DNA of 64,000 nucleotides, taken from the NCBI RefSeq assembly GCF_030345795.1, contig NZ_JAUALB010000001.1:548501-612500 (forward strand), in the 5' to 3' direction. The notes under the pieces were generated by a model. It had not been told where the DNA came from, searched no databases, and worked only from the letters and a program-made list of their open reading frames with translations. Both the position numbers and the translations under genes were made by a program. This DNA comes from Micromonospora sp. WMMA1363 (GTDB lineage: Bacteria; Actinomycetota; Actinomycetes; Mycobacteriales; Micromonosporaceae). Every line of letters starts with the position of its first letter. Position 1 is the stretch's first letter. This document shows positions 34,153-60,748 of this stretch, in pieces.

Positions 34153-34188
34153 GAGTCGACGTTCCGGCGCGAGCCGGGACGTCGACTC
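34153..34188. terminator. Bidirectional terminator between deacetylase and glycosyltransferase genes
   Basis: GAGTCGACGT 34153-34162 pairs with ACGTCGACTC 34179-34188; the stem continues inward for six more pairs (one G-T) to a GCGA tetraloop at 34169-34172. The genes are convergent, and the GT2 stop codon overlaps its edge. Confidence 0.75.
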
Positions 34189-37451: not shown

Positions 37452-37654
37452 CCCGCCGACTGATTGATCGGTAAGTTAGAAATACCACCTCTCGACCCGG
37501 TTTGAAGTATCGGCCGGGTGTGCTTCTTTTCTTGCCAAAGGGCCGCCGGCGCGGTGACACTTGCGGGTACCCGTAGCATCGTGTCCGCGTCCGTCTCGCC
37601 GCGTGCCGAGTGCGGCGTGACCTTTTCTCGCCCGAACCTCGGCAAGGGGATGTA
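37452..37654. other. AT-richer divergent promoter region of the polysaccharide locus
   Basis: About 200 bases between divergent operons, with clearly more A/T (37460-37540) than anywhere nearby. GGGTACCC 37565-37572 is a palindrome flanked by GACAC 37556-37560 and GTGTC 37581-37585. TAGCAT 37574-37579 is a possible -10 for the + strand operon. No gene seen. Confidence 0.4.
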
Positions 37655-41063: not shown

Positions 41064-44000
41064 GTGAACGGAGAGCAGGGGCGGATCGCCGGTCGCGGCG
41101 TCGCGTCAGTGTGGTCCACAGTGCGTGCACGCCGTGGGTTCCTGACGCGCCGCGCGACGGGTGCGCTCGCGCTCGTCGTGGCGGTCGCGGCAGGCGCGTT
41201 CGTGGCCCCCGGTTCGGCTCAGGCTGATCCGTGTAACCCGGTGGTCAACCCGGTCGTCTGTGAGAACAGCAAACCGGGCACCCCGGCCTCGGCGTGGGAC
41301 GTGGACGGCAGTGGCGATCCGTCGATCCAGGGGTTCGCGACGGACATCAGCGTCAACGCGGGACAGCGAGTCGATTTCAAGATCAAGACCGACGCGGCGG
41401 CGTACATCATCGACATCTACCGGCTCGGCTGGTACGGCGGTGACGGAGCTCGCAAGGTCGCGAGCGTCGACCCCTCGGCGCCGTTGCCGCAAACGCAGCC
41501 CGACTGCATCACCGACGCCGCCACCGCGCTGTTCGACTGCGGCAACTGGGCGGTCTCCGCCTCCTGGACCGTGCCCTCGACCGTGGTCTCCGGCGTCCAC
41601 ATCGCCCGGCTGCAGCGTACCGACACCGGCGGGAACAGCCACATCACCTTCGTCGTGCGGCAGGACGTCAGTACCTCCGACGTCTTCTTCCAGACCTCCG
41701 ACGCGACGTGGCACGCCTACAACAAGTACGGGGGCTCCGACTTCTACTCCGGCGGTGGCTCGGCCGGCCGCGCCTACAAGGTCAGCTACAACCGCCCCTT
41801 CGCCACCCGCAACAGCGTAGAACGGCGAGACTTCCTCTTCGGCGCCGAGTACCCGATGATCCGCTTCCTGGAGCGCAACGGGTACGACGTCAGCTACACC
41901 ACGAACGTCGACAGCGACCGGCGTGGCGAGCTGATCAAGAACCACAAGATCTTCCTCTCGGTGGGCCACGACGAGTACTGGTCGGGCGCCCAGCGGCAGA
42001 ATGTCGAGGCCGCCCGGGACGCCGGCACCCACCTCGCCTTCTTCAGCGGCAACTCGATCTACTGGAAGACCCGCTGGGAGCCGAGCAAGGACGGCAGCGA
42101 CACCGCCTACCGCACCCTCGTCTCCTACAAGGAGACCTGGGCCGAAGCGAAGATCGACCCGTCGAGTGCGTGGACCGGCACCTGGCGGGACCCGCGGTTC
42201 AGCCCCCCGTCCGACGGTGGGCGGCCGGAGAACGAGCTGATGGGCACCATGTTCATGGTCAACGACGGTGACCTCGCGTTGACCGTGCAGGCCGAGGAGG
42301 GCAGGTACCGCCTCTGGCGCAACACCGACCTCACCTCGCTGCCGGCCGGAACGTCCGCCACCCTCGCTCCGCACACGGTGGGTTACGAGTCGGACGAGGA
42401 CCTGGACAACGGCTTCCGGCCACCGGGTCTGATCCGGCTCTCCACGACCACCGGCGAGGTGCCGCAGGTGCTGCAGGACTTCGGCAACAAGGTCGCCCCC
42501 GGCACGACCACCCACCACCTCACCCTGTACCGCGCGGCCAGCGGTGCCCTGGTCTTCGGTGCCGGCACCATCCAGTACACCTGGGGCCTGGACGCGGTAC
42601 ACGACGGGCAGGCCACCCCGACCGACAGCCGGATGCAGCAGGCCGTCATCAACCTCTTCGCCGACATGGGTGTCCAGCCGGGCACCCTGATGACCGGCCT
42701 GGTGGCCGCTACCGCGTCGACCGACGGCACGGCGCCGACGGTTACGATCTCCACGCCGGCGGCGGGGGCAACGGTGGCCCGGGGCGGTGAGGTGACGCTT
42801 ACCGGCACCGCCAGCGACGTCGGCGGACGCGTCGCCGGGGTGGAGGTCTCCACGGACGACGGCGCGAGCTGGCACCCGGCGACCGGCACCACGTCCTGGT
42901 CGTACACCTTCTACGCGGCGGGCCTGAGCTCCCAGGTGGTGCGCGTCCGGGCCATCGACGACAGCGTCAACATCGGCACCCCGGCCACCCGGGAGTTCCC
43001 GCTCACCGGCCCGAACACGCTCTTCGGCCAGCGGGTGCCGAAGCGGCCCGCGGTGGCCGACGGCGCCGCGGTGGAGCTTGGCGTTCGGTTCACCCCGCAG
43101 ACCGACGGGTACGTCACCGGCGTCCGCTTCTACAAGGGAACCGGCAACACCGGCACCCACCTGGGTCGACTGTGGACCAAGTCAGGTCAGCTGCTGGCCG
43201 ACGGCACGTTCGCCGACGAGACGGCCAGCGGCTGGCAGAGCCTCAGCTTCGGCTCGCCCGTGCCGGTGACCGCCGGGGTCACCTACGTCGCGTCGTACTT
43301 CGCGCCGAACGGTAGCTACGCCGGCGACGACTGGTTCTTCACCAGCGACTGGACGAGCGGTCCGCTCACCGCGCCGCAGTCGGCCGCCGGTGGTGGCAAC
43401 GGCCTGTTCCGGTACGGGGGCTCGGGTGGCTTCCCGAACGAGACGTACGGTGCGGCCAACTACTACGTGGACGTCACCTTCGCGGTCAGCGCCGGCCTAC
43501 CGCCGGTCGTCACCTCCACCACCCCGACCGACGGCTCCGGCGACGTTCCGGTCGACAGCACGCCCTCGGCCGTCTTCTCGAAGGCGTTGGACCCCGCCAC
43601 GGTCTCCTTCACGCTGACCAAGGATGACACCCCGGTCGCCGGGACCAGCGCCTACGACGGGGCCCTGAAGAAGGTGACATTCACCCCGTCGGCCGCGCTG
43701 GACCCGTCGACCAGCTACACCGCCACGGTCACCGCCTCCGACGCCGAGGGCCGGTCGGGAAACGCCACCTGGTCGTTCTTCACCGCGCTCGACACCGAGC
43801 TGCACACCCTCTTTCCGCCGGACGCGGTCCCGGCGACGCCGGCGCACAACGACGCCAACGCGGTCGAGTTGGGCGTGACGTTCCAGCCGCGGGTCGACGG
43901 CCGGGTGGTCGGCATCCGCTTCTACCAGGGGCCGGGCAACACCGGCAGCCATCCGGTGACGCTGTGGTCCGCGGCTGGTACCCCGCTGCGCACCGTCACC

Positions 44001-44768
44001 CTGCCGAGCACGACCGCCGTGGGATGGCGTACCGCCTACTTCGCCAGCCCGCTCAACGTGGCGACGGGGACGAACTACGTGGCCTCCTACTTCGCGCCCG
44101 ACGGCTTCTACCCCGGCGACAACGGATACTTCGCCAACACCCAGACGGTCGGGCCGCTGGCGGCGCCGGGCGGTAGCAACGGTGTGTACCGCTACGGCGG
44201 GAGCGGTTTTCCCAACCAGTCCTACGCGTCGACGAACTACTGGGTGGACCCGCTCTTCCTGACCGACGAGGAGGTCGACCCCGGACCGCCGCCGCCTGGG
44301 GCACACGGGATCTTCGCCGTGACCGACGTCCCGCAGACCGCGAACTGGGACGACAACGCCGCCGTCGAGCTGGGGATGCGGTTCGTCCCGGCCGTCGACG
44401 GGCAGGTCTACGGTGTTCGGTTCTACAAGGGGCCGGGCAACACCGGCCCGCACACCGGTTCGCTCTGGTCCCCGGGCGGTAGGCGGTTGAGCACCGTGAC
44501 CTTCAGCGACGAGACCGCGTCAGGGTGGCAGACCGCGTACTTCCCGGCCGCCGTTGCGGTGAGCGCGGGTCAGCAGTACGTCATCTCCTACCACACCACC
44601 GTCGGGCAGTACGCGGTTACCGGTGGCGGTCTGGCCAGCCCGCGCACTGTCGGGCAGCTGACCGTACCGGCCTCGGGCGCGACCTACCGTTACGGTTCCG
44701 GGGACGGGTATCCGTCCTCGTCGTCGAGCGCGAACTACTGGGTCGATCTGGTGTTCGCTCCGTACTGA
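41064..44768 (+). CDS. Tat-exported DUF4082 multi-domain surface protein
   Basis: The protein is 1234 residues. RARRGFLTRRATGALALVVA is a twin-arginine signal with RRGFLT, cleaved near AQA at 54. Residues about 70-545 resemble the C-terminal domain of the N,N-dimethylformamidase beta subunit family (AAYIIDIYRLGWYGGDGARK, LSVGHDEYWSG). An Ig-like domain follows (about 556-650), then DUF4082 repeats at about 650-808, 913-1066 and 1080-1234. A Big_5-like Ig domain lies at about 813-910. Each DUF4082 starts near AAVELG-x-RF and ends in NYWVD or NYYVD. Likely binds or modifies the glycan outside the cell; activity unknown. Confidence 0.8.
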   Translation: MNGEQGRIAGRGVASVWSTVRARRGFLTRRATGALALVVAVAAGAFVAPGSAQADPCNPVVNPVVCENSKPGTPASAWDVDGSGDPSIQGFATDISVNAGQRVDFKIKTDAAAYIIDIYRLGWYGGDGARKVASVDPSAPLPQTQPDCITDAATALFDCGNWAVSASWTVPSTVVSGVHIARLQRTDTGGNSHITFVVRQDVSTSDVFFQTSDATWHAYNKYGGSDFYSGGGSAGRAYKVSYNRPFATRNSVERRDFLFGAEYPMIRFLERNGYDVSYTTNVDSDRRGELIKNHKIFLSVGHDEYWSGAQRQNVEAARDAGTHLAFFSGNSIYWKTRWEPSKDGSDTAYRTLVSYKETWAEAKIDPSSAWTGTWRDPRFSPPSDGGRPENELMGTMFMVNDGDLALTVQAEEGRYRLWRNTDLTSLPAGTSATLAPHTVGYESDEDLDNGFRPPGLIRLSTTTGEVPQVLQDFGNKVAPGTTTHHLTLYRAASGALVFGAGTIQYTWGLDAVHDGQATPTDSRMQQAVINLFADMGVQPGTLMTGLVAATASTDGTAPTVTISTPAAGATVARGGEVTLTGTASDVGGRVAGVEVSTDDGASWHPATGTTSWSYTFYAAGLSSQVVRVRAIDDSVNIGTPATREFPLTGPNTLFGQRVPKRPAVADGAAVELGVRFTPQTDGYVTGVRFYKGTGNTGTHLGRLWTKSGQLLADGTFADETASGWQSLSFGSPVPVTAGVTYVASYFAPNGSYAGDDWFFTSDWTSGPLTAPQSAAGGGNGLFRYGGSGGFPNETYGAANYYVDVTFAVSAGLPPVVTSTTPTDGSGDVPVDSTPSAVFSKALDPATVSFTLTKDDTPVAGTSAYDGALKKVTFTPSAALDPSTSYTATVTASDAEGRSGNATWSFFTALDTELHTLFPPDAVPATPAHNDANAVELGVTFQPRVDGRVVGIRFYQGPGNTGSHPVTLWSAAGTPLRTVTLPSTTAVGWRTAYFASPLNVATGTNYVASYFAPDGFYPGDNGYFANTQTVGPLAAPGGSNGVYRYGGSGFPNQSYASTNYWVDPLFLTDEEVDPGPPPPGAHGIFAVTDVPQTANWDDNAAVELGMRFVPAVDGQVYGVRFYKGPGNTGPHTGSLWSPGGRRLSTVTFSDETASGWQTAYFPAAVAVSAGQQYVISYHTTVGQYAVTGGGLASPRTVGQLTVPASGATYRYGSGDGYPSSSSSANYWVDLVFAPY

Positions 44769-44770
44769 CA

Positions 44771-44808
44771 ACCGGCGGCGCGGGGTCGTGTGGTCCCGCG
44801 CCGCCGGT
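44771..44808 (+). terminator. Terminator after the DUF4082 gene
   Basis: ACCGGCGGCGCGGG 44771-44784 pairs perfectly with CCCGCGCCGCCGGT 44795-44808 around a 10-base loop, three bases after the stop codon. Confidence 0.8.
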
Positions 44809-44865
44809 CGTCCGGTGACCTGACAGTCCGGCGGTACCCGCCGGGCGGCTCGAAGTGGGGGAGAA

Positions 44866-46089
44866 GTGCGACTGCTCGTCGGCCTGCACCATCTGGAGCT
44901 CGGGGGCAGTCAGCTCAACGCCCTGGATCTCGCGGTCAGCGTCCGGAACCAGGGCCACGAGGTGGCAATATTCGGCAACTACCGGGACGAGCCCGGCCCG
45001 ATGGTGGCCCTCGCCCGGAAGGCGGGACTGCCGGTGATCGCGGTACGGCACCGGGCCGAGCGCCTGGGGCGTACCGTGCCGGTCCGGCCGGGGTTGTCCC
45101 GCGCGTTGACTCGGGCCGTCCGCGAATTCCGGGCCGACCTCGTGCACGCGTACGAGTACTCGGTGGCCCTCGACGCCTTCTACGGCCCGCACCTGCGCCT
45201 GGGTACGCCGGTGGTCACGACCGTGTACGGCATGCGGGTGCCTCGCTGGATGCCCCGTTACGGCGGCCTCGTCGTCGGCACCGCACAACTGGAGGCGGAG
45301 GTGGCCGCGTTCCGGCCACGGCCGACGTTGATCGAGCCTCCGGTCAACACGGACGTCGACGACCCGGCGGTGGTTGACGGCCTCCCGTTCCGTGCCCGCC
45401 ATGGCATCGGTCCGGACGAGATCGTGATCGGCGTGGTCTCCCGACTCGAGCCGGACATGAAGGCGGAGGGGGTGCTGCGGGCGATCCGCGCGCTGCGGCT
45501 GCTCGACGACGAACGGCTGCGGTTGGTGGTGACCGGTGGGGGCCCCTCCTATCCGGAGGTGGCGGCCGAGGCGGAGCGTGTGAACGCGGCGCTGCGCCGT
45601 CCGGCGGTGGTGCTGACCGGTCCGATGGACGATCCACGTGGGGCGTACGCGGCCGCGGACATCGCGCTGGGCATGGGCGGGTCCGCGTTGCGGGCGATGG
45701 CCTTCGCGCGTCCCCTCGTGGTGCTCGGGATCCGGGGTTTCTCCCGGACCTGCGCCCCAGAGACGATCGACTACTTCCTCCGCTGGGGCTTCTACGGCAT
45801 CGCCGACGGCGACCTGGATCCGGCCCCGCTGGCGGCACAGATCGGTGAGCTGGTCGGCGACCGGCGTCTCCGCGTCGAGCGCGGTGACTGGGGACGGCGA
45901 CTGGTCCTGAGCCGGTTCAGCCTGAAGGCGGCCACCCAGACCCTGGACGAGGTCTACGCCGAGGCGCTGCGGCATCGGCCCGGGTCGGGGGCCCGGCTGC
46001 GGGAGGGCTTGCGGGTGGCCGGGCACAAGGGTGTGGCCGACCTGCTGCCCACCGCGGCCCGCCAGCGGATCCGACGGATGCTCGGGTGA
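44866..46089 (+). CDS. Glycosyltransferase family 4
   Basis: The protein is 407 residues. LLVGLHHLELGGSQLNALDL is the N-terminal Rossmann opening with the GGSQ loop typical of GT4. VIGVVSRLEPDMKAEGVLRA begins the donor domain. GGSALRAMAFARPLVVLG replaces the usual E-x7-E stretch, with the first Glu not obvious. GTG 44866 has GGGGGAG very close (two bases). The stop overlaps the flippase start. Confidence 0.85.
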   Translation: MRLLVGLHHLELGGSQLNALDLAVSVRNQGHEVAIFGNYRDEPGPMVALARKAGLPVIAVRHRAERLGRTVPVRPGLSRALTRAVREFRADLVHAYEYSVALDAFYGPHLRLGTPVVTTVYGMRVPRWMPRYGGLVVGTAQLEAEVAAFRPRPTLIEPPVNTDVDDPAVVDGLPFRARHGIGPDEIVIGVVSRLEPDMKAEGVLRAIRALRLLDDERLRLVVTGGGPSYPEVAAEAERVNAALRRPAVVLTGPMDDPRGAYAAADIALGMGGSALRAMAFARPLVVLGIRGFSRTCAPETIDYFLRWGFYGIADGDLDPAPLAAQIGELVGDRRLRVERGDWGRRLVLSRFSLKAATQTLDEVYAEALRHRPGSGARLREGLRVAGHKGVADLLPTAARQRIRRMLG

Positions 46090-47543
46090 GCGTCGAGGAG
46101 CGTCCCGCCCCGGTGGCCGAGCGGCCGGCCTTCTTCGCGAAGGCGGCCCGGGCCCTGGGTTGGAGCATGGCGAGCACCATCATCAACCGGCTCAGCACAC
46201 TCGCCATCGGCATCGCGCTGGCCCGGATCCTCGGCCCGGACGCTTTCGGCACGTTCGCAGTGGCCCTGGTGGTTCTGCTGGCGGTGCTGAGCTTCAACGA
46301 GTTGGGGGTGAGCCTGGCGATCGTGCGGTGGCCCGGTGACCCTCGGGAGATCGCGCCGACGGTGGCTACGCTGTCGGTGCTCACCAGCACGCTCGTCTAT
46401 GGCGGGCTCTTCCTCGGGGCGCCGCTGCTCGCCCGGGTGCTCGGCGATCCCGGTTCGACCGCGGTCATCCGGATCCTGGGGCTGAGCGTCATCGTCAGCG
46501 GCCTCGTGGCGACGCCCGTGGCGCTGCTGCAACGCGCGTTCCGCCAGGACCGGAAGGCGGTGGCCGACCTGGTGACGAACTGGACCAGTGCGCTCGCGTC
46601 GATCGGCCTGGCGCTGGCCGGCAACGGGGCGATGAGCCTGGCGCTGGGGCAGCTCGCCGGCTCGCTCGCCGGGGCGGTTCTTTTCGGCATCTTCGCGCCG
46701 CAGGGGCTGCGGTTCGGATTCGATCCGGCGAAGGCTCGCGCGCTGCTCCGCTTCGGGCTGCCGCTCGCCGGGTCCAGCATCGTCTTGTTCGCCACCACCA
46801 ACCTTGATCGGGTCGTGGTCGGTGCCACGCTCGGTCCGACCGCACTCGGGTACTACGTGCTCGCGCTCCAGCTCGCCACCTGGCCGGTAACCGTCTTCTC
46901 GCAGCCGGTCCGGGCGGTGGTGCCGGCCGCGCTGGCCCGGCTGCACGACGATCCGCCGGCGATGCGCCGGTCGTTCCTCGCCGCGGTCGCCCTGCTCGGA
47001 TCCGTCACGCTGCCGGCGTGCCTGCTGCTCGCGGCGGCGTCGGACGCCCTGATCCGCTTCCTCTACGGCGACGTCTGGCAACCGGCGGCGGGGGTGCTCC
47101 TGTGGCTGGGGCCGCTGGCGGCGCTGCGCATCCTGTTCGAACTCTGCTACGACTACTTCGTGGTGATCGCCGACACCCGCGTGGTGCTGAACGTCCAGGT
47201 GGTCTGGTTCGTGGTGCTGCTGCCCTCCCTGTATGCGGCGGGCACGCTGGCTGGGCTCCAGGCCGCCGCGGCGGTCCAGTTCGCGGTCGCCCTGCTGGTG
47301 ATCTTCCCGTTGTACCTCACCGCGCTGCGCCGGGCGGGGATTCGGACCCTGTCGGTCGCCGCGCGGCTGGGTCCGCCGCTGCTCGGTGCCGTCGCGGTCG
47401 TGCTCGTTGCCCTGCTGATGGCCCGGGCCGGCGCGATCGACCTGGTGGTGCTTGCGGTGGCCGGGGTCACCACGCTTGCCGCGATCGGTCTGCTCGGCTA
47501 TCGGCTGCGGGGCGTGATCCGCGAACTCAAGACGGTCGGCTAG
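46086..47543 (+). CDS. Wzx-type oligosaccharide flippase
   Basis: The protein is 485 residues with about 12-14 membrane segments, MATE/MVF-like polysaccharide exporter family. SMASTIINRLSTLAIGIALA opens the first helix with FGTFAVALVVLLAVLSFNEL; LGYYVLALQLATWPVTVF is characteristic. It should flip the undecaprenyl-linked repeat for the Wzy enzyme. GTG 46086 overlaps the upstream GT stop. A strong bidirectional terminator overlaps its stop codon. Confidence 0.92.
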   Translation: MSVEERPAPVAERPAFFAKAARALGWSMASTIINRLSTLAIGIALARILGPDAFGTFAVALVVLLAVLSFNELGVSLAIVRWPGDPREIAPTVATLSVLTSTLVYGGLFLGAPLLARVLGDPGSTAVIRILGLSVIVSGLVATPVALLQRAFRQDRKAVADLVTNWTSALASIGLALAGNGAMSLALGQLAGSLAGAVLFGIFAPQGLRFGFDPAKARALLRFGLPLAGSSIVLFATTNLDRVVVGATLGPTALGYYVLALQLATWPVTVFSQPVRAVVPAALARLHDDPPAMRRSFLAAVALLGSVTLPACLLLAAASDALIRFLYGDVWQPAAGVLLWLGPLAALRILFELCYDYFVVIADTRVVLNVQVVWFVVLLPSLYAAGTLAGLQAAAAVQFAVALLVIFPLYLTALRRAGIRTLSVAARLGPPLLGAVAVVLVALLMARAGAIDLVVLAVAGVTTLAAIGLLGYRLRGVIRELKTVG

Positions 47544-49199: not shown

Positions 49200-50060
49200 A
49201 TGGGGATCCGGATCGAGCCCATCACCGGGTCGCAGGTGAGAGCGGCGGGACAATTCCTTCATACCCACCTTAACGGTCAAGTCCCCGTGGAGGCATGGGT
49301 ACGCGCGGTCGACGTGCCCTGGAAGGTGGACGCGCCGAACCACGGCATGATGCTGGTCTCCGACGGCGGCGAGGTGGTCGGTGTGTTGCTCGCCTTCTAT
49401 TCCGAGCGTATGGTGACCGGCCAGGCGGAGCGGTTCTGCAACCTCGGTGCCTGGTGCGTGCTGCCCGAGTTCCGGTTCCACAGCCTCAAGCTACTCAGGG
49501 CGCTGCTGGCCCAGCCCGGCTACCACTTCACTGACCTCTCACCGAGTGGCAACGTGGTGCCGATCAACACCCGGCTGGGTTTCTGCTTCCTGGAGACCAG
49601 CACCGTGCTGGTGCCGAACCTGCCCTGGCCTTCGCTGCCGGGCCGGCGCGTCGTCAGCGCGGATCCGGAGGTGATCCGGCGGACGCTCACCGGGCCCGAC
49701 CTGGAGCGTTACCTCGACCACGCGGACGCCCCGGCCGCCAGGCACGTCGTCCTGGTCGACGGCGACCAGTGGTGCCACGTCGTCTTTCGTCGCGACCGCC
49801 GCAAGCGGCTGCCACTGTTCGGGTCGATCCTGTACGTCAGCAACCCACAGCTGTTCCACCGGATGCACCGGATGCTGCTTCGCCACCTACTGCTACGCCA
49901 CGGCGTGGTCGCCACCCTCGCGGAGCTGCGGGTGGTCGGCCGGCGCCCGTCGCTGTCGGTCCTGCTCCCGGACACCCGGCGCAAGATGTTCCGCAGCGAC
50001 AGCCTCGACCCCGACGACATCGACTACCTCTACAGCGAACTGGTCTGCCTCAACTGGTGA
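49200..50060 (+). CDS. GNAT-like acyltransferase of the carrier-protein module
   Basis: The protein is 286 residues. MGIRIEPITGSQVRAAGQFL and GMMLVSDGGEVVGVLLAFYS resemble a GNAT fold. CNLGAWCVLPEFRFHSLKLL would be the acyl-donor loop region and NTRLGFCFLETSTVLVPNLP the late strand. The C-terminal 120 residues have no recognised family. It is the first gene of the unit with the ligase, decarboxylase and ACP. The best guess is that it transfers an acyl group from the ACP to a sugar. Start from ATG 49200; ribosome-binding site weak. Confidence 0.6.
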   Translation: MGIRIEPITGSQVRAAGQFLHTHLNGQVPVEAWVRAVDVPWKVDAPNHGMMLVSDGGEVVGVLLAFYSERMVTGQAERFCNLGAWCVLPEFRFHSLKLLRALLAQPGYHFTDLSPSGNVVPINTRLGFCFLETSTVLVPNLPWPSLPGRRVVSADPEVIRRTLTGPDLERYLDHADAPAARHVVLVDGDQWCHVVFRRDRRKRLPLFGSILYVSNPQLFHRMHRMLLRHLLLRHGVVATLAELRVVGRRPSLSVLLPDTRRKMFRSDSLDPDDIDYLYSELVCLNW

Positions 50061-50093
50061 CCAGATGCCCGGACGAGAGAGACTAACCCCACA

Positions 50094-51653
50094 ATGCGCA
50101 CTCACCTTCACGAGCTCGTCGCGGACGCGGCCGCTCGGCGGGGCGGCGCCCCCGCGCTCACCTACAAGGACGACACGGTCAGCTATGCGCAGCTCTGGCA
50201 GGGCGTGGCCGCGGTGGGCGCGGGTCTGGTCCGGCTCGGTGTCGAGCGCGGCGACCGGGTGGCCGTCTGGACCGAGAAGCGGATCGAGGCGGTCGAGGCC
50301 ATGTTCGGTGCCTCCGCCGCCGGTGGCGTTTTCGTGCCGGTCAACCCGCTGCTGCGGCCCCGGCAGGTCGGCTACATCCTGGCCGACTGCGCGGTCCGGG
50401 TGCTGGTCACCACTCCGGAGCGGTACGCGCTGCTCCGTGCGGAGTTGGAGCAGGTCAAGTCGGTCGAGCACGTGGTCCTGATCGGCGGGGGGCGCGCGGG
50501 GAGCGATCGGCAGACGGTGACCGTCTGGTCGATGCTGCGTGACGGTGATCCGCTCGGGTCCACCGGCACCGGCATCGACGTGGACATGGCGGCGATCCTC
50601 TACACCTCCGGCAGCACCGGCCGACCGAAGGGAGTGGTGCTCTCGCACCGCAACCTGCTCGCCGGGGCGGCGAGCGTCAGTAGCTACCTGGCGAACTCCG
50701 CCGACGACGTGATCCTGGCCGCGCTGCCGCTCAGCTTCGACGCCGGCTTCAGCCAGCTCACCACCGCCTTCACCGTCGGCGCCCACGTGGTGCTGATGAA
50801 CTATCTGCTCCCGGGGGACGTGGTGCGGCTGTGCGCCCGGCACCGCGTCACCGGGCTCACCTGCGTGCCGCCCCTGTGGCTGCAACTGGCGGACCAGCCA
50901 TGGCCGGAGGAGGCCAGCACCCATCTGCGGTATTTCGCGAACACCGGTGGGCGGATGCCGAAGGCCACCCTGGAGCGGCTGCGTGGCACCTTCCCGAACG
51001 CGCTGCCGTACCTGATGTACGGGCTGACCGAGGCGTTCCGCTCGACCTACCTCGACCCGTCGGAGGTGGACCGCCGGCCCGACTCGATCGGCAGGGCGAT
51101 CCCCAACGCGGAGATCCTGGTGATCCGCCCCGACGGCACGCCCTGCGAGCCGGGGGAGGAGGGCGAACTGGTGCACCGCGGCGCGCTGGTCGCCCTCGGC
51201 TACTGGAACGATCCGGCGCGGACGGCGCAGCGGTTCCGTCCGGCGCCCGGACGGGACGGGCAACTGCTCCCCGAGCCGGCGGTCTGGTCCGGCGACACCG
51301 TCGTGCGGGACGAGGAGGGGTACCTCTACTTCGTCGGACGGATCGACGACATGATCAAGACGTCCGGATACCGGGTGAGCCCCACCGAGATCGAGGAGGT
51401 CGTCTACGACAGCGGCCTCGCCCGCGACGCGGTGGCGCTCGGCCGGCCCGATCCGAAGCTCGGGCAGCGGGTGGTCCTGGTCGTCAGCCCTCCCGACGGC
51501 GCCGAGGTCGACCGAACGGCCCTACTCGCGGTCCTGAAGCGGGAGCTGCCGCCGTACATGCTGCCCCGGGAGATCGTGGTGCGGCCCACGCTGCCCCGAT
51601 CGCCGAACGGTAAGTTCGACCGGAACCTGCTACGCCAGGAGTTGACCTCGTGA
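50094..51653 (+). CDS. AMP-forming acyl-CoA/ACP ligase, exosortase A-associated type
   Basis: The protein is 519 residues of the ANL superfamily. AAILYTSGSTGRPKGVVLSH is the P-loop, MYGLTEAFRSTYLDP the A5 region, YFVGRIDDMIKTSGYRVSPT the A8 hinge, and PRSPNGKFDRN holds the catalytic Lys. The order ligase-decarboxylase-ACP matches the exosortase A-linked genes (TIGR03098/TIGR03099 type) of Gram-negative bacteria, but no exosortase is seen here. It probably adenylates a carboxylic acid or amino acid and loads the ACP at 52893. GTGA overlap with the decarboxylase. Confidence 0.85.
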   Translation: MRTHLHELVADAAARRGGAPALTYKDDTVSYAQLWQGVAAVGAGLVRLGVERGDRVAVWTEKRIEAVEAMFGASAAGGVFVPVNPLLRPRQVGYILADCAVRVLVTTPERYALLRAELEQVKSVEHVVLIGGGRAGSDRQTVTVWSMLRDGDPLGSTGTGIDVDMAAILYTSGSTGRPKGVVLSHRNLLAGAASVSSYLANSADDVILAALPLSFDAGFSQLTTAFTVGAHVVLMNYLLPGDVVRLCARHRVTGLTCVPPLWLQLADQPWPEEASTHLRYFANTGGRMPKATLERLRGTFPNALPYLMYGLTEAFRSTYLDPSEVDRRPDSIGRAIPNAEILVIRPDGTPCEPGEEGELVHRGALVALGYWNDPARTAQRFRPAPGRDGQLLPEPAVWSGDTVVRDEEGYLYFVGRIDDMIKTSGYRVSPTEIEEVVYDSGLARDAVALGRPDPKLGQRVVLVVSPPDGAEVDRTALLAVLKRELPPYMLPREIVVRPTLPRSPNGKFDRNLLRQELTS

Positions 51654-52873
51654 CCAACCACCCCGCCGCGGCCTTCCACCGCGACGCCGGCCGGCTCGCC
51701 GTGGGCGGCGTACCGGTCGACCGCCTCGCCGAGCGCGTCGGCGGCACGCCGTTCTTCGCGTACGACCGCCGGCTGCTCACCCGGCGGGTGGAGCTCCTGC
51801 GCGCCACGCTGCCGCGGGAGATCCAGCTCAGCTACGCGGTGAAGGCGAACCCGATGCCGGCCGTGGTGCAGCACCTCGCCGGCTTGGTGGACTCCCTCGA
51901 CGTCGCCTCCGCCCTGGAGATGCGTACCGCCCTCGACACGCCGACGCCGCCGCAGCGAGTCAGCTTCGCCGGCCCGGGCAAGACCGACGCGGAGCTGCGC
52001 CAAGCCATCGCGGCGGGCGTGACCATCGAGATGGAGTCCGAGAACGAGGCAGACCGCGTCGCCGCCCTGGGCCGCCGGCTCGGGCTCCGGCCGCGTGTCG
52101 CGGTGCGGGTCAACCCGGACTTCGCCGTCAAGGGCTCGGGCATGCGCCTCGGCGGTGGCCCGCAGCAGTTCGGGGTGGACTCCGAGCGGGTTCCCGCCCT
52201 GTTGAAGGAACTCGCGAACGCCGACGTCGAGTTCCTCGGCTTCCACGTCTTCGCCGGCTCGCAGAACCTGCGTGCCGACAGCCTCTGCGAGGCGCAGCGA
52301 CGCACCGTCGATTTGGTGCTCCGGCTGGCCGAGGAGTCCGGGCTGCCGGTGCGCTACCTCAACCTGGGCGGCGGCTTCGGCATCCCGTACACCGACCGCG
52401 ACGAGCCGCTGGACCTCGCAGCGGTCGGGGCGAACCTCACCGACCTGGTACGGGGTCCGATCCGGCAGGGGCTGCCCGAGGCGCGGATCGTGATCGAACT
52501 CGGTCGTTACATCGTCGGCGAGTGCGGCGTGTACGTCACCCGTGTGGTCGACCGGAAGGTCTCCCGCGGCCGAACGTACCTGGTGGTGGATGGCGGACTG
52601 CACCACCAACTCGCCGCCTCCGGCAACTTCGGTCAGGTGATCCGCCGTAACTACCCGATCGCGGTGGCGGAACGGATCGACGCCGAGCCGGCCGAGACGG
52701 TGACCGTCGTCGGGTGCCTCTGCACCCCGCTGGACCTGCTCGGGGACGCGGTGACACTGCCCCGGGCGGACGTCGGGGATCTCGTCGTCCTGTTCCAGGC
52801 CGGTGCCTACGGCCGCACCGCCAGCCCGACCGCCTTCCTCAGCCACCCGGCCCCGGCCGAGGTGCTGGTCTGA
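51650..52873 (+). CDS. Type III-fold PLP decarboxylase (Orn/DAP decarboxylase family)
   Basis: The protein is 407 residues. LSYAVKANPMPAVVQHLAG holds the PLP Lys, FLGFHVFAGSQNLRADS follows, NLGGGFGIPYTDRDE is the phosphate loop, IVIELGRYIVGECGVYVT the barrel end, and VVGCLCTPLDLLGD with VLFQAGAYGRTASP the C-terminal domain. This pattern matches exosortase A-associated decarboxylases and BtrK-like enzymes. It may decarboxylate an amino acid held on the carrier protein rather than free lysine precursor; that is inference. GTG 51650 overlaps the ligase stop. Confidence 0.85.
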   Translation: MTNHPAAAFHRDAGRLAVGGVPVDRLAERVGGTPFFAYDRRLLTRRVELLRATLPREIQLSYAVKANPMPAVVQHLAGLVDSLDVASALEMRTALDTPTPPQRVSFAGPGKTDAELRQAIAAGVTIEMESENEADRVAALGRRLGLRPRVAVRVNPDFAVKGSGMRLGGGPQQFGVDSERVPALLKELANADVEFLGFHVFAGSQNLRADSLCEAQRRTVDLVLRLAEESGLPVRYLNLGGGFGIPYTDRDEPLDLAAVGANLTDLVRGPIRQGLPEARIVIELGRYIVGECGVYVTRVVDRKVSRGRTYLVVDGGLHHQLAASGNFGQVIRRNYPIAVAERIDAEPAETVTVVGCLCTPLDLLGDAVTLPRADVGDLVVLFQAGAYGRTASPTAFLSHPAPAEVLV

Positions 52874-52892
52874 TCGCCCAGAAGGAGAAACT

Positions 52893-53156
52893 GTGGACGT
52901 CACGCACGTGGAAACCCTCGACGAGGTCCGGGAGGTCGTGGTCTCGGTGCTCGGCATCGAGGACCGGGCGGCCACGCTGGACGCCTCGACGCCGCTGCTG
53001 GAGAGCCTGCCGGAGTTGGACTCGATGGCGGTCCTCGAGTTGGTCGCGGCGCTCGAGGAGCGGTTCGGCTTCACCGTCGACGACGGCGACGTGACCGCCG
53101 AACTCTTCGAGACGCTCGGCAGCCTCTCCCGCTTCGTCGCCGACCGTCGGCCGTAA
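52893..53156 (+). CDS. Acyl carrier protein
   Basis: The protein is 87 residues, acidic, a four-helix carrier. LPELDSMAVLELVAALEERF includes the phosphopantetheine Ser in DSM (usual DSL). GTG 52893 is chosen because GAAGGAG lies five bases upstream; longer frames are not family-like. It follows the decarboxylase by 19 bases. The dedicated carrier ties the ligase and decarboxylase into one assembly unit for a glycan substituent. Confidence 0.85.
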   Translation: MDVTHVETLDEVREVVVSVLGIEDRAATLDASTPLLESLPELDSMAVLELVAALEERFGFTVDDGDVTAELFETLGSLSRFVADRRP

Positions 53157-54248: not shown

Positions 54249-55295
54249 TCAGCGGACCACCGCCGGCGACCAGGCGTCGGCAACCAGCAGACGCGGCTGC
54301 CCGCCGCCGTCGGCCGGGAGAGCCCAGATGTCGCTGGAGGCCGAGGCCGCATCCGTCCGAGGTAGTCCGTACAGCACCGTGTCGTCGTCGAGCCACTCGA
54401 CCTGGTCGTCCACGCTGCGGGTCTCGCTCAACAGCGTCTCCGTCCGGGTCACCAGGTCGTACACCGCCAGCCGCCAGCGGCCCGGCGGCAGGTCACCGTG
54501 CTTCTTGAAGGCGATCCGGGACCCGTCCGGCGACAGCGACGGGCATTCGACGTCCTCCCGCAGCGCGGTGACCCGGCGCGCGGCGAGACTCCCCTCGACC
54601 AGCCAGGTCCTGCCGCCGAAGGCGGCGGTGGCGTAGAAGCGGTCGTCGTCGGCGAACGTGACGCCCCACAGGTTCCGGTCCACGGCGGTCACCACCTCGC
54701 CGCCGACGATGAGTTCGAACTGTTCGATGTCACCGACGACCTCGCCGTCGACCCGGGTCACCACCGTCCGGGTGGAGAACTGCCCGGGGCTGGCGTACGA
54801 GTCGCCGTGGACGAAGGTCGTGGTGGCGACCAGTGAGCCGTCGCGGGACAGTCGGGCTCGGCTCGGCAGCCCGACGAGCGGCAGGTCGCGTCGGGGCGTC
54901 CAGTCGGGGCCGAGAACCTGTGCCTGGTACGTGGTCACGAGTCCCCGGTCCGCCGAGATGCAGACCGCATCGCCCCGGGTCGCGTGGACCCGCTCACAGG
55001 ACACCCCGGCGATCGCTCGCGGCCCGGCGCTGGCAGAGAGCGGGACCATCGCCACCCGGCCGTAGTCGGTACCCAGGGCGGTGTTGCGGAAGACCAGGTG
55101 CGGCCCGCTCCGGACCGCGGCCACGTCGTCGCGGGTCGATGCGCCGGTCGCCGTCGCCCGCGCCGTCACCAGGTCCTGTCGCGCCTGCCAGACGTAGCCG
55201 CCCGCGCCCCCGGTGGCGACCAGTAACACGGCCGCCAGCACCGCCAGCCGCGCCCGTGGACCGAGCACCCTCACCCGGTCGCCGCGCGGGTTCAC
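54249..55295 (-). CDS. Membrane-anchored beta-propeller (TolB-like) protein
   Basis: The protein is 348 residues. One N-terminal helix (LAVLAAVLLVATGGAGGYVW, about 17-36) serves as signal or anchor. The rest has WD40/TolB-like blades such as CPSLSPDGSRIAFKKHGD and DIWALPADGGGQPRLLVADA. GTG 55295 overlaps the MFS stop, so the pair are co-transcribed. Function unknown; a sensor or binding role for the exported product is possible. Confidence 0.75.
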   Translation of the reverse strand: MNPRGDRVRVLGPRARLAVLAAVLLVATGGAGGYVWQARQDLVTARATATGASTRDDVAAVRSGPHLVFRNTALGTDYGRVAMVPLSASAGPRAIAGVSCERVHATRGDAVCISADRGLVTTYQAQVLGPDWTPRRDLPLVGLPSRARLSRDGSLVATTTFVHGDSYASPGQFSTRTVVTRVDGEVVGDIEQFELIVGGEVVTAVDRNLWGVTFADDDRFYATAAFGGRTWLVEGSLAARRVTALREDVECPSLSPDGSRIAFKKHGDLPPGRWRLAVYDLVTRTETLLSETRSVDDQVEWLDDDTVLYGLPRTDAASASSDIWALPADGGGQPRLLVADAWSPAVVR

Positions 55296-56584
55296 GCCGG
55301 CACCTCGTCGGCGCGGGCCTGGTTGGGGACGTCCGCGGCCGGAGGATCGCTGCCACGCAGCAGCCAGGCGGCGATCGGCACCGCCGCGGCGAGGAGGGCG
55401 GCGAAGACCAGCAACGCCCGCTGCGGTCCCTGCCCGCTCCAGAGCAGCCCGAACAGGACGGATGCCGTGAACCGCGCCAGGGCCACCGTGGTCTGGGCGG
55501 CCGCGATCCCGCTGCCCCGGGCGGCGGGTGCCAACAGCCGGCTCACCAGGGCCGCGAGCACGCCGTCGGTGGCGGCGTAGAAGGTTCCCAGCAGCAGCAG
55601 GACCGCGACGGTGAGACCGATACCGCCCCCGGGCAGCGCCGCGAGTAGATAGCCGCCCAGCAGGGCGAGGTGACCGGCGACCAGCACGCGGCCCCGCCCG
55701 ATCCGGTCGGCCAGCCGGCCCAGCGGGATGGCCAGCGCCAGGTAGGCGACGTTGGTTCCCACGTAGAGCAGCGGGAAGTAGCGGGCTGCGAAGCCGTCCC
55801 GGTCCTGGAGGGCCAGGTAGAGGAAGCCGTCACCGACGGTCAGGAGGCCGAGCAGGGCAGCAGCCAGCAGCGGCCGCCGTAGCCGCCGTCCGGTGACCTC
55901 CGCGACCACCTGCCGCAGGCCGGTGCGGGCGGCGCCGACCGCGGTCGGCAGGTTCGGAACGAACAGCACCAACACCGCCACGCCGGCGACCGCGAAGGCG
56001 AACGAGACGACGAAGATGGAGTCGTAGCCGCCGGGCACAGCCGCGAGTAGGGCGAAGGCGACGAGCGGGCCGAGGGCGGCGCCGAGGGTGTCCAGCGCCC
56101 GGTGTACGCCGAACGCCCGCCCCAACATCTCCGGCCGCGACGCGGCGGCGATCAGGGCATCCCGCGGCGCGGTGCGCAGGCCCTTGCCCAACCGGTCGGC
56201 GGTGACCACCGCGGTGACCGCCGCGAAGCCCGCCGCCGGCAGCATCGCCAGGCGGCTCAGCGCTGACCCGGCGTACCCCGCCACCGCCACCCACTTGGGT
56301 CGCTGGCCCCGGTCGCCGGCGTAGCCCCCAGCGATCCGCACCAAGGCGCTGACGCCCTGGTAGACGCCGTCCAGGAAGCCGTACGCGATGGGGCTGAGGC
56401 CGACCACGGCGGTGAGGTAGAGCGGCAGGACCGCGGCCACCATCTCCGACGAGACGTCGGTGAGCAGACTGACCGTGCCGAGCAGCACCACGGTCCCGGT
56501 GACGCCGCGCACGCCGATACGGGCCCGGCTCGCATCAGAGCCGCCTGGCCGGTCCCGCAACGTCACGTACACCCGAAACTCCAT
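55292..56584 (-). CDS. MFS transporter
   Basis: The protein is 430 residues with 12 predicted helices. SLLTDVSSEMVAAVLPLYLT in helix 1 and ADRLGKGLRTAPRDALIAAA in the helix 4-5 loop match the MFS group of drug or sugar exporters with an R-x-P-R-D-A signature. Substrate unknown. It is translationally coupled with the beta-propeller gene and lies between the glycan module and the amino-sugar operon. Confidence 0.88.
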   Translation of the reverse strand: MEFRVYVTLRDRPGGSDASRARIGVRGVTGTVVLLGTVSLLTDVSSEMVAAVLPLYLTAVVGLSPIAYGFLDGVYQGVSALVRIAGGYAGDRGQRPKWVAVAGYAGSALSRLAMLPAAGFAAVTAVVTADRLGKGLRTAPRDALIAAASRPEMLGRAFGVHRALDTLGAALGPLVAFALLAAVPGGYDSIFVVSFAFAVAGVAVLVLFVPNLPTAVGAARTGLRQVVAEVTGRRLRRPLLAAALLGLLTVGDGFLYLALQDRDGFAARYFPLLYVGTNVAYLALAIPLGRLADRIGRGRVLVAGHLALLGGYLLAALPGGGIGLTVAVLLLLGTFYAATDGVLAALVSRLLAPAARGSGIAAAQTTVALARFTASVLFGLLWSGQGPQRALLVFAALLAAAVPIAAWLLRGSDPPAADVPNQARADEVPA

Positions 56585-56647
56585 CCCGGGCCGGCTCCGC
56601 CGGGCCGCCCGGCTACGGCCCTGATCGCCGTCGTCCTGTCGAGGACC

Positions 56648-57769
56648 TCAGTGCGCCAGCGCGGCGGCCAGCGCGGCCACGACCGCCTCCTGCTGGTCGG
56701 CGGTGATCTGCGGGTAGATCGGCAGGGACAGCAGCTCCGGCGCGCTCCGCTCCGCGTTCGGGAAGGCACCCTCGGAGTGGCCGAGGCCGGCGAAGGCCGG
56801 TGTCCGGTGCACCGGCACCGGATAGTGGATCGCCGCCCCGATGCCCGCCGCGCTGAGCCGGGCCACCACCTGGTCCCGGCGGGCCGCGGTGCCGTCACCG
56901 GGAATCCGGACGCAGTAGATGTGCCACACGTGCTCGTTGCCGGGCAGGGTCACCGGGCGGATCACGTCGACCGACTCCAGCAACGCGTCGTAGCGGGCCG
57001 CGGCGGCCCGACGCTGCGCGTTCCAGGTGGCCAGCCGGGCCAGCTTGGCGCGCAGCACCACCGCCTGGAGACCGTCCAGCCGGCTGTTCACGCCGATCAC
57101 GTCGTGCACGTACTTCGTCAGACCGCCGTGGCTGCCCAGCGTGCGGACCGCCGTGGCGAGGTCGGCGTCGGCGGCCACCACGGCGCCGGCGTCGCCGTAC
57201 GCCCCCAGGTTCTTGCCGGGGTAGAAGCTCGTCGCCGCGATGCCGTCCACTCCGGCGCCGCGCCCGTGCCGCGTGGCGCCCTGGCACTGCGCGGCGTCCT
57301 CGACGATGGCGATCTCGCGCCCGGCCACGCCGGCCCGCAGCCGCTCCACCGGCGCGAGCTGGCCGTAGAGGTGCACCGGGATGATCGCCCGCGTTGCGGG
57401 CGTGACCGCGGCGAGCGCCGCGCCGACGTCCAACAGATACGAGTCGGACTCGCAGTCGACCAGCACCGGTCGCGCGCCGGCCCGGGCGACCGCCTCGGCG
57501 GTGGCGATGAAGGTGTTCGCCGGCAGGACCACCTCGGTGCCGGGCCCGACGCCGACGGCGCGCAGCGCAAGCTCGAGCGCGTCGGTGCCGTTGGCCACCC
57601 CCACACAGTGCCGCACACCGCTGAACGCGGCGTACTCCCGTTCGAACGCGGCCACCTCGGCGCCGCCGACGAAGGCGGTGTCGGCGATGACCCGTTTGAA
57701 ACCGGCCTCCACCTCCTCCGCGACCTCCGCGTGCGCGGCGGCGAGGTCGACGAGCGGAACTCCCGGCAT
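56648..57769 (-). CDS. DegT/DnrJ/EryC1/StrS aminotransferase (sugar), copy 1
   Basis: The protein is 373 residues. It makes an amino-sugar nucleotide from a keto-sugar using PLP. VPLVDLAAAHAEVAEEVEAG, GVANGTDALELALRAVGVGP, EDAAQCQGATRHGRG and SFYPGKNLGAYGDAGAVV with the PLP Lys are all visible. Its type resembles WecE/FdtB-like 3-amino sugar enzymes. ATG 57769 is chosen because GGGGAG precedes it by six bases. Last gene of the five-gene minus-strand operon. Confidence 0.92.
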   Translation of the reverse strand: MPGVPLVDLAAAHAEVAEEVEAGFKRVIADTAFVGGAEVAAFEREYAAFSGVRHCVGVANGTDALELALRAVGVGPGTEVVLPANTFIATAEAVARAGARPVLVDCESDSYLLDVGAALAAVTPATRAIIPVHLYGQLAPVERLRAGVAGREIAIVEDAAQCQGATRHGRGAGVDGIAATSFYPGKNLGAYGDAGAVVAADADLATAVRTLGSHGGLTKYVHDVIGVNSRLDGLQAVVLRAKLARLATWNAQRRAAAARYDALLESVDVIRPVTLPGNEHVWHIYCVRIPGDGTAARRDQVVARLSAAGIGAAIHYPVPVHRTPAFAGLGHSEGAFPNAERSAPELLSLPIYPQITADQQEAVVAALAAALAH

Positions 57770-57771
57770 GA

Positions 57772-58545
57772 CTAGCTCCCCACAACCTTCGGTACGGCAA
57801 CTTCTTGCAGTGACGCCAGCGCGGACACCGGCTCCGGTCGCGCATCCCACCCGTCGGGTGCCGGCGCGGTGCGAGGTGTGCCCGCCGGCGCCGGCAGCCC
57901 GGCGGTGCGCAGGCGGCGGGCCGGGTTGCCGGCCCAGATCTCGCCGTCCGGTACGTCGCGCAGGACAACCGAACCCATCCCGACGAGTGACCCCGCACCG
58001 ACCGTCACACCCTCGCGGACGAGGGCACCCGCGCCGACGTACGCGCCCCGGCGTAGCGTCGCGCCACCACCGAGGCGAACCCCGGATGCGATGGTCACGT
58101 GGTCGGACACCTGGTCGTCATGGGTGAGCACGACGTGCGGCATGACCGCGACGTGCTCGCCGACGGTCACGTCCGCCGTGAGCACCACGCCGGCGAGCAG
58201 GACCGAGCCGGGACCGAGGACGCTCCCGGCGCCGACGTCCGCGGTCGGATGAACGATCGTGGCGTACCGCTCCACCGGTAGGCCGAGCCGCTCCACGATC
58301 CGCTGCCGCGCCACGTAGTTGCGGGGATTTCCCACGCAGACGACGACCTGTGTCCCGGACATCCCGGCCAACGCGTCGGTGCCGCCGAGGATCGGCAGGC
58401 CGGCCCGGGTGACGCCGTGCAGCGCGGGGTCGTCGTCGAGGAACCCGCGCAGCCGCCATCTCGGCTGGACGCCGTTGACCGCGCACACCGCCGCGGCGGT
58501 CTCCCGCGCGAACCCGCCCGCGCCGACGATGACGAGATCCCGCAT
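57772..58545 (-). CDS. NeuD/PglD-family sugar O/N-acyltransferase
   Basis: The protein is 257 residues. An N-terminal PglD-type Rossmann part (LVIVGAGGFARETAAAVCAV) is followed by left-handed hexapeptide repeats (about 95-210, IVHPTADVGAGSVLGPGSVL, GVRLGGGATLRRGAYVGAGA). It likely acetylates the amino group made by the adjacent aminotransferase. ATG 58545 overlaps the upstream stop by one base, and it ends two bases before the next gene's ATG. Confidence 0.9.
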   Translation of the reverse strand: MRDLVIVGAGGFARETAAAVCAVNGVQPRWRLRGFLDDDPALHGVTRAGLPILGGTDALAGMSGTQVVVCVGNPRNYVARQRIVERLGLPVERYATIVHPTADVGAGSVLGPGSVLLAGVVLTADVTVGEHVAVMPHVVLTHDDQVSDHVTIASGVRLGGGATLRRGAYVGAGALVREGVTVGAGSLVGMGSVVLRDVPDGEIWAGNPARRLRTAGLPAPAGTPRTAPAPDGWDARPEPVSALASLQEVAVPKVVGS

Positions 58546-59681
58546 CAGCCGGCCAGCTTGCGCAGCACGCCGGCGACGTGGTCCTGGTCGTCCTCGGTCA
58601 GCGCGTGGTGCAGCGGCAGGATCAGTGAGTCGCGGGTCAGCCGCTCGGTCACGGGTAGCGGCGCGGGCGTCACATCGGCGTACGCCGGTTCCAGGTGGGC
58701 GGCCATGATGCCGCGCCGGGCCGACACGCCGACCGCGGCCAGCTCTGCGAGCACCTCGTCGCGGCCCACTCCGTACTCCCGGTCGATCAGCACCCAGAAC
58801 GACTGGAAGTTGGTCTCGCCGTACTCCGGGTCGTGGACCGGCACCAAACCGTCGATGTCCGCGAGTAGCTCGTGGTAGCGCGCCGCCAGGAGCCGCCGGT
58901 GCCGCACGAGCTCCGCGAGCCGGCCGAGCTGCACCAGTCCGATGGCCGCCTGGATGTCAGTCATCCGGTAGTTGAAGGCGGTCTCCAGATAGGCCTCCAG
59001 CACCGGTTGGGCGCTGGCGTGGCGTTCGGCGGCGGAGACGTTCATCCCGTGCTCGCGCAACCGGCGGAGCCGGGCGGCCCACTCCGGGTCGTCGACCGTG
59101 ACCATCCCACCCTCGCCGGTCGTCAGCAGCTTGCGCGGGTGGAACGACCAGGCAGAGATGGTGGAGCCGGCGCCTACCGGCCGCCCGTACGCCGTCGAGC
59201 CGGCGGCGCAGGCGGCGTCCTCGATGAGCGGCACCCCCCAGCGGCCGGCGGCTTCCCGCAGCGCGGCGACGTCGAACGGCACCCCACCCTGGTGCACGGC
59301 GATCACGGCCCGGGTGCGGGTGGTCCGGACGGCGTCGACGGTCGCGACCGTCAGGTTACCCGTGGCGAGATCGACATCGGCGAAGACCGGGGTCGCTCCG
59401 ACGTAGCGCACCGCGTTGGCGGTGGCGATGAAGGAGAACGACGGCACGATCACCTCGTCGCCCGGGCCGATGTCCAGCACGACCAGCGCCAGGTGTAACG
59501 CGGTGGTGCAGGAGCTGACTGCCACCCCATGACCGGCGCCGACCCGCGCGGCGAACTCCTGCTCGAAGCGCGCCACCCGCGGCCCCTGGGCCACCCAGCC
59601 CGACCGCACCGCGTCCGCGGCGGCCTGCGCCTCCTCCTCACCGAGCTGTGGGATCATGACCGGGATCCGTTTGGTGCTCAC
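58545..59681 (-). CDS. DegT/DnrJ/EryC1/StrS aminotransferase, copy 2
   Basis: The protein is 378 residues. RIPVMIPQLGEEEAQAAADA, SGWVAQGPRVARFEQEFAAR, AVSSCTTALHLALVVLDIGP, EDAACAAGSTAYGRPVG and SAWSFHPRKLLTTGEGGMVT (PLP Lys) are visible. It belongs to a different branch from copy 1, so two different amino groups or sugars may be made. GTG 59681 start. Confidence 0.92.
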   Translation of the reverse strand: MSTKRIPVMIPQLGEEEAQAAADAVRSGWVAQGPRVARFEQEFAARVGAGHGVAVSSCTTALHLALVVLDIGPGDEVIVPSFSFIATANAVRYVGATPVFADVDLATGNLTVATVDAVRTTRTRAVIAVHQGGVPFDVAALREAAGRWGVPLIEDAACAAGSTAYGRPVGAGSTISAWSFHPRKLLTTGEGGMVTVDDPEWAARLRRLREHGMNVSAAERHASAQPVLEAYLETAFNYRMTDIQAAIGLVQLGRLAELVRHRRLLAARYHELLADIDGLVPVHDPEYGETNFQSFWVLIDREYGVGRDEVLAELAAVGVSARRGIMAAHLEPAYADVTPAPLPVTERLTRDSLILPLHHALTEDDQDHVAGVLRKLAG

Positions 59682-59742
59682 CGGCCGCGCCTCTCAACTG
59701 CGATGACGGGGCGTGGTCGCCCGCCTATCGTGTTCCGTCCGG

Positions 59743-60708: not shown

Positions 60709-60748
60709 GCCAGCAGTCCACTCCAATCCGTGCCCATGCCTCGCCCGG

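Follow-up and report, generated by a model that had tools for sequence, protein, structure and literature searches.

A tightly packed row of four plus-strand genes in Micromonospora sp. WMMA1363, an actinobacterium with a 6.48 Mb genome, encodes a GNAT-type acyltransferase, an AMP-forming ligase, a type III pyridoxal phosphate (PLP) decarboxylase, and an acyl carrier protein (ACP). The genes lie within a 64,000-nucleotide stretch, hereafter the window, that carries a polysaccharide locus. We favor, with moderate confidence, a reading in which this cassette serves to swap acyl groups on a surface polysaccharide in the cytosol: aspartate would be converted to beta-alanyl-ACP, and the beta-alanyl group would N-acylate a deacetylated amino sugar. 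Family membership, pocket residues, the modelled fold, and the linkage of the genes are what the sequence shows; which substrate and acceptor are used, in what order the steps run, and how charge is affected are inferred. The initial annotation had identified the four adjacent genes from the sequence, and their coordinates and families are verified.

The ligase (50094..51653, +) is a member of TIGR03098 (752.5 bits; curated cut-off of 592.35) and the decarboxylase (51650..52873, +), which overlaps it by four bases, is a member of TIGR03099 (592.4 bits; curated cut-off of 478.45). The initial annotation had pointed to these exosortase-associated families as opposed to ordinary fatty-acid or diaminopimelate (DAP) clades, and they fit. 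Identity of the ligase as a fatty-acid ligase was rejected on its TIGR03098 score and on the ranking of matches in the PDB. Identity of the second enzyme as an ordinary DAP decarboxylase was likewise rejected, because it scores 249.5 bits against the LysA model TIGR01048, under the cut-off of 297.9, and because the PDB ranking favors BtrK of butirosin biosynthesis (249 bits) over the best DAP decarboxylase (156 bits). The genome of the window has one TIGR03099 member above the cut-off.

Features of the ligase suggest its substrate. When its substrate lobe is compared with the PDB, VinN (3wv4, 3wvn) ranks first; in VinN, Asp230, Ser299, and Arg331 occupy positions proposed to hold beta-methyl-aspartate. 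In an alignment of the lobes (chain offset of 16) these residues correspond to D216, T284, and R316 of the window ligase. Across 82 aligned rows, the aspartate is present in 81 (the remaining row is truncated and has a gap), threonine or serine in 82, and the arginine in 82. The same D, T, and R are found in 120 of 120 listed homologues of a Burkholderia ligase (7,999 were scored). The initial annotation had likened the trio of ligase, decarboxylase, and ACP to BtrJ-BtrK-BtrI; this holds for the decarboxylase but not for the ligase, which resembles VinN and not BtrJ, an ATP-grasp enzyme with a fold unlike that of the window ligase. Therefore, conversion of aspartate to beta-alanine is likelier than conversion of glutamate to 4-aminobutyrate.

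Published accounts of related systems describe comparable chemistry. VinN-type enzymes are reported to load L-Asp by its beta-carboxyl, and a PLP enzyme then makes beta-alanine on the carrier (PMC7756342, PMC12186527). AfcQ is described as activating L-Asp and loading AfcK, on which AfcP decarboxylates it to beta-alanine in vitro (PMC12186527); BolO is proposed to activate L-Asp (PMC7756342, PMC12186527), and VinN is reported to accept 3-methyl-aspartate (PMC11284099). As far as these accounts go, VinN-VinO-VinL (vicenistatin), AfcQ-AfcP-AfcK, and BolO-BolN-BolC each combine a VinN-type adenylation enzyme, a PLP decarboxylase, and a free-standing carrier, like the cassette, and BolN is termed BtrK-like (PMC7756342, PMC12186527, PMC11284099). 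These sets feed polyketide or peptide assembly, whereas the cassette of the window is in a polysaccharide locus with a GNAT and a deacetylase. Judged from sequence, aspartate giving beta-alanyl-ACP is most likely the route in the window, with glutamate or 3-methyl-aspartate less so.

In the decarboxylase, the active-site cysteine is followed by threonine (Cys358-Thr359). A glutamate following this cysteine is a trait of DAP decarboxylase (LysA), and is found in the DAP decarboxylase 2p3e. The threonine is present in 91 of 91 decarboxylase rows, as in BtrK, the closest solved match. L028 and L060, which represent one and the same contig, both contribute rows to this alignment, to that of the pocket, and to the tree described below. 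Butirosin BtrK is reported to use iso-glutamyl-ACP (PMC7756342), whereas the product proposed for the window is beta-alanyl-ACP.

The ACP matches PF00550 (E of 3.3e-9), as the initial annotation had it, but not from the frame start at 52803, which falls inside the decarboxylase gene. The real start is likely a GTG at 52893, preceded by AGAAGGAG, giving a protein of 87 aa (52893..53156, +) with the presumed phosphopantetheine serine in the motif ELDSM.

The first gene of the row (49200..50060, +) encodes a protein of 286 aa proposed to take the aminoacyl group off the ACP and attach it to an amino sugar. Its product matched no Pfam or NCBIfam family at E ≤ 0.001, and a PDB sequence search returned nothing up to E of 10. 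Structural comparison of its AlphaFold model (mean pLDDT of 88.7) places tandem GNATs among the best matches, so that the model supports the GNAT-like fold seen by the initial annotation. In this comparison N-myristoyltransferases and glucosamine N-acetyltransferases are tied within about 1 Z. The protein has no hydrophobic windows above threshold. It also left the NodA family model unmatched in the Pfam and NCBIfam searches, and sequence kinship with NodA is without support; the GNAT may nevertheless work like NodA. Kinship of its profile with the FemAB protein of a proteobacterial exosortase A locus (L110) was rejected (hhalign probability of 0.9%).

The GNAT is rare in the phylum. Among 396 genomes, with at most six best first-look candidates scored per genome and misses thus possible, it is present in three: that of the window, G143, and G030. 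In the phylum, the first two are the only genomes with a TIGR03099 member over the cut-off. In G030, the GNAT gene overlaps an ACP gene on a 9.5 kb contig that has no ligase or decarboxylase match. At L161:3600-6470, in a small genome, GNAT and ACP genes occur without a ligase or decarboxylase match and with two alpha/beta-hydrolase-like genes upstream, as judged by eye; perhaps another acyl group is carried there on the same type of carrier. One family of the phylum (f18, with loci including L006 and L016) has a sister trio that scores about 407–424 bits, short of the TIGR03099 cut-off, and in L006 a FemAB protein directly adjoins it.

A deacetylase and a GT2 glycosyltransferase encoded upstream probably belong to the system as well. 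The deacetylase (33481..34146, +; 221 aa), proposed to bare the amine, matches PF01522 (74 bits; cut-off of 23.1) and lacks a hydrophobic segment. The FDD and HGxxH motifs, which contain the metal-binding Asp-His-His residues of CE4 deacetylases, are retained in at least 95% of 33 rows. At E < 1e-40, the subfamily is found in 36 of 42 tested genomes with the GNAT, and in 34 it is within 20 kb of the decarboxylase gene (median of 3.6 kb). The 42 genomes derive from 45 GNAT loci; three (L088, L089, and L095) were omitted, and a deacetylase is visible in each. In the 396 genomes of the phylum, only that of the window has a match at this threshold and the other 34 matching genomes reach 1.1e-18 at best, in a control that considered at most seven best first-look candidates per genome and is hence weaker than the test, with misses possible. 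Genomes of eight of the 11 loci without the GNAT were tested (L048, L064, and L079 omitted), and the deacetylase is strong in three anywhere and in one within 20 kb. The GT2 glycosyltransferase (34187..35149, −; PF00535, 49.1 bits) adjoins the deacetylase, and no more than 170 bases separate the two in 26 of the 29 loci carrying both. In seven of eight rhizobial loci (the exception is L056), genes are in the order GNAT, ligase, decarboxylase, ACP, GT2, and deacetylase. The locus of Sinorhizobium meliloti reads hypothetical protein, ligase, decarboxylase, ACP, GT2, and deacetylase.

The cassette is kept across several actinobacterial orders and Rhizobiales, and chance is therefore excluded. Related loci were the best 80 of 520 confirmed stretches, which is not a random sample, and co-occurrence was counted from the best tblastn match per gene per locus within 6 kb, with truncated contigs counting as misses. 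The closest kin at the locus are one Micromonospora strain and one other strain of Micromonosporaceae. Among the 47 actinobacterial loci, the GNAT is present in 37, the ligase in 42, and the ACP in 43, and 35 have all three within 6 kb. All eight rhizobial loci have GNAT, ligase, decarboxylase, and ACP together. The 24 proteobacterial loci have no GNAT, with the ligase in 21 and the ACP in ten. Further copies of the ligase and decarboxylase occur on plasmid records of S. meliloti and Aureimonas. In a quick tree of decarboxylases with an arbitrary root and long outgroup branches, actinobacterial and rhizobial members form one starred clade (99), set apart from the exosortase-type decarboxylases of Proteobacteria. 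Of ten rhizobial rows, nine group (98) among the actinobacterial ones at an unstarred fork with a support of 87. On this tree, lateral transfer would fit the placement of the rhizobial decarboxylases.

Exopolysaccharide (EPS) loci with exosortase A (XrtA) in Proteobacteria have a ligase and a decarboxylase of the same two families as the window. Unlike these loci, the cassette has no exosortase match. As the initial annotation had noted for the stretch, no exosortase is evident: a search of the whole genome with PF09721 yielded a single match of 15.1 bits (E of 0.03) that is interrupted by stops, in a search that did not extend to other exosortase models or to PEP-CTERM proteins. Among the 80 relatives, exosortase is found at E < 1e-50 in 22 of 24 proteobacterial genomes (one of the other two has a weak match and one has none). 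In the remaining 56 genomes (47 actinobacterial, eight rhizobial, and one labelled Melainabacteria), PF09721 exceeds its cut-off in one (30.5 bits) and falls under it in three more. Because strong exosortase is confined to proteobacterial genomes, its lack is a rule of the actinobacterial and rhizobial branch rather than an oddity of the strain.

A comparison of transferases and deacetylases reveals a parallel between the two systems. The FemAB family TIGR03019 and the deacetylase family TIGR03006 each occur in 22 of 24 proteobacterial genomes, and the two genes are within 300 bases of each other in 21 of 22 genomes having both. At E ≤ 1e-20, neither occurs in any of 26 relatives with the GNAT cassette, a set that does not include the genome of the window. 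In these relatives, the tandem GNAT stands where TIGR03019 would, and the deacetylase is of another subfamily than TIGR03006. In L110, where an ACP and GNAT-superfamily proteins are nearby, the TIGR03019 protein also matches the GNAT domain PF13480, and two more PF13480 proteins are near the ACP. Each system pairs a deacetylase with a GNAT-superfamily transferase, from different families, in genomes that have the carrier module in common. A second, divergent ligase and decarboxylase (38–39% identity to those of the window) adjoin the exosortase-type pair on the opposite strand in L093 and L094 (11.4–17.5 kb). More tentatively, beta-alanyl-ACP made by the TIGR03098-TIGR03099-ACP trio may generally be the donor, in EPS loci, for N-acylating an amino sugar that a cytosolic deacetylase encoded in the same locus has bared, with the tandem GNAT as transferase in actinobacteria and rhizobia and the TIGR03019 FemAB in exosortase A systems.

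We propose the following steps for the window. L-aspartate would be adenylated by the ligase on its side-chain carboxyl and loaded onto the ACP, and the PLP decarboxylase would remove the alpha-carboxyl on the carrier to yield beta-alanyl-ACP. The CE4 deacetylase, with the neighboring GT2, would act on an N-acetylated sugar within the growing glycan and remove its acetyl group. The tandem GNAT would then move beta-alanyl from the ACP to the bared amine. The repeat unit would thereby gain a free primary amine and afterwards be flipped and polymerised. The initial annotation had proposed that an amine-bearing acyl group on the ACP is put on the polysaccharide by the GNAT. The gene families, the overlap of GNAT and ACP genes in G030, and the co-occurring deacetylase are consistent with that core; the likeness to BtrJ does not hold, and the missing exosortase characterises a whole actinobacterial and rhizobial branch.

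The predicted logic is analogous to that of Nod factor synthesis, where NodC is a chitin synthase. NodB is reported to deacetylate and NodA to N-acylate from an ACP (PMC5080398). Like NodC-NodB-NodA, the system would consist of a glycosyltransferase, a deacetylase, and then ACP-dependent N-acyl transfer. Unlike in Nod factors, the group would be a short aminoacyl, the product is probably a polymer, and the GNAT shows no sequence kinship to NodA.

Several findings weigh against the acyl-swap reading. At full length, the ligase scores higher against linear gramicidin synthase (252.6 bits, summed over three stretches) than against VinN (191.7 bits). VinN Ser299 is a threonine in the window ligase and thus not identical, and the pocket residues do not for certain separate Asp from 3-methyl-Asp or Glu. 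AfcQ was not identifiable by its published Arg311 and Lys503, since those of the 120 listed Burkholderia ligase homologues with matching R-to-K spacing are without Met at the implied first residue; AfcQ, like BolO, is thus only a possible member of the same families. A search across 195 genomes from G474's family did not find afc either, with matches reaching at most 58% identity. Three genomes with the GNAT (G420, G443, and G445) are without the deacetylase, three mycobacterial ones have only a weak relative nearby (about 1e-12), and in two (G396 and G413) the deacetylase is on a different contig from the cassette. In the window itself, deacetylase and GT2 are 14–15 kb upstream of the cassette and not in one operon with it. 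The GNAT is absent from 22 genomes of the phylum that have the sister trio (under the TIGR03099 cut-off). Lastly, six decarboxylases of the same clade, in a starred subgroup (L059, L064, L068, L069, L077, and L078), lie outside glycan-type loci. Because of these six, the carrier product need not reach a glycan, and it probably can also serve other ends.

The subgroup bears on whether the amino acid on the carrier instead starts a small molecule (polyketide or peptide), its position in a glycan locus being incidental. Ketosynthase-like proteins, judged by eye from their N-termini, are encoded in five of the six loci (not L059), and these decarboxylases may supply beta-alanyl polyketide starters. 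They are positioned around 10 kb in their loci, with the exceptions of L064 (3.4 kb) and L077 (4.7 kb). L069 and L077 have a ligase and ABC-transporter-like genes besides the decarboxylase, and L064, labelled Melainabacteria, groups with actinobacteria and may be misbinned. A Burkholderia cenocepacia locus (L124:9692-20947) also fits a starter, perhaps in an uncharacterised small-molecule cluster. Its ligase (700.1 bits, TIGR03098) and decarboxylase (559.2 bits, TIGR03099; 56% identity to that of the window) are above the cut-offs, and its neighbors include two weak ketosynthase III matches, a relative of acyl-CoA dehydrogenase, and a LuxR-type regulator. We nevertheless consider a starter role quite unlikely for the window, where, as in cassette relatives, glycosyltransferase, flippase, and polymerase genes surround the cassette. 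Moreover, none of the six subgroup loci has the GNAT, and the deacetylase is within 20 kb in none of the five tested (L064 was not; the genome of L068 has a strong copy on another contig).

It is also conceivable, if unlikely, that the module works as proposed but on another amino acid: glutamate, by its distal carboxyl, would give 4-aminobutyryl-ACP, and 3-methyl-aspartate would give 3-aminoisobutyryl-ACP. The reported substrate of BtrK argues for glutamate (PMC7756342) and that of VinN for 3-methyl-aspartate (PMC11284099), whereas the VinN-like substrate lobe, the reported activation of L-Asp by the VinN-type AfcQ, and the same role proposed for BolO argue for aspartate. The structural tie between N-myristoyltransferases and glucosamine N-acetyltransferases could mean that the acceptor of the GNAT is not a sugar but the amine of beta-alanyl-ACP itself (as a cap), a lipid, or a protein. 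This is very unlikely in our view, as a locus-specific deacetylase accompanies the GNAT and none of these acceptors would need one. Finally, the names of the trio families, given after exosortase A, could suggest that a diverged exosortase system elsewhere in the genome is served by the trio as in Proteobacteria. This is scarcely credible given the lack of a convincing PF09721 match across the genome and the limitation of strong exosortase to proteobacterial relatives.

Further genes surround the cassette. Following the GT2 are two GT4-like glycosyltransferases, one protein without a family match, and one Wzy/O-antigen-ligase-like protein (35146..40011). Next are a secreted DMFA2_C/DUF4082/Big protein, a GT4 glycosyltransferase, and a MOP flippase (41064..47543, +). 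Besides a hydrophobic stretch at its N-terminus, the secreted protein (41064-44768; 1234 aa) contains DMFA2_C, three stretches of DUF4082, and Big domains; relatives turn up in many cassette loci, and it could act on glycan amide groups. Downstream of the cassette (54249..61828, −) are genes for a PD40 protein, an MFS transporter, two DegT aminotransferases, a NeuD-type acetyltransferase, an epimerase, and a Gfo/Idh oxidoreductase, which constitute an amino-sugar pathway. The adjoining genes for the PD40 protein and MFS transporter (54249-56584) stay together in many of the actinobacterial cassette loci. The initial annotation had labelled two secreted proteins flanking the cassette as beta-helix proteins, a label that no Pfam match confirms. 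A tRNA with a four-base anticodon (cgcc) called by ARAGORN at 26164-26258 is within a coding frame and probably false.

To our knowledge, the function of the ligase and decarboxylase pair that accompanies exosortase A is unexplained, and in the open-licence literature no text naming TIGR03098 or TIGR03099 was found. The locus shows that the pair occurs without an exosortase. It points to aspartate as the substrate and beta-alanyl-ACP as the product, and it ties the pair to sugar deacetylation and acyl transfer, the cassette-linked cytosolic CE4 deacetylase being new here. It thereby offers a testable chemistry for a pair present in many Gram-negative bacteria and associated with polysaccharides of biofilms and flocs. 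If the general reading is true, a logic like that of Nod factors puts primary amines on surface polysaccharides and explains the exosortase A pair. Primary amines would make such polysaccharides cationic or zwitterionic, with possible consequences for adhesion, flocculation, and immune recognition.

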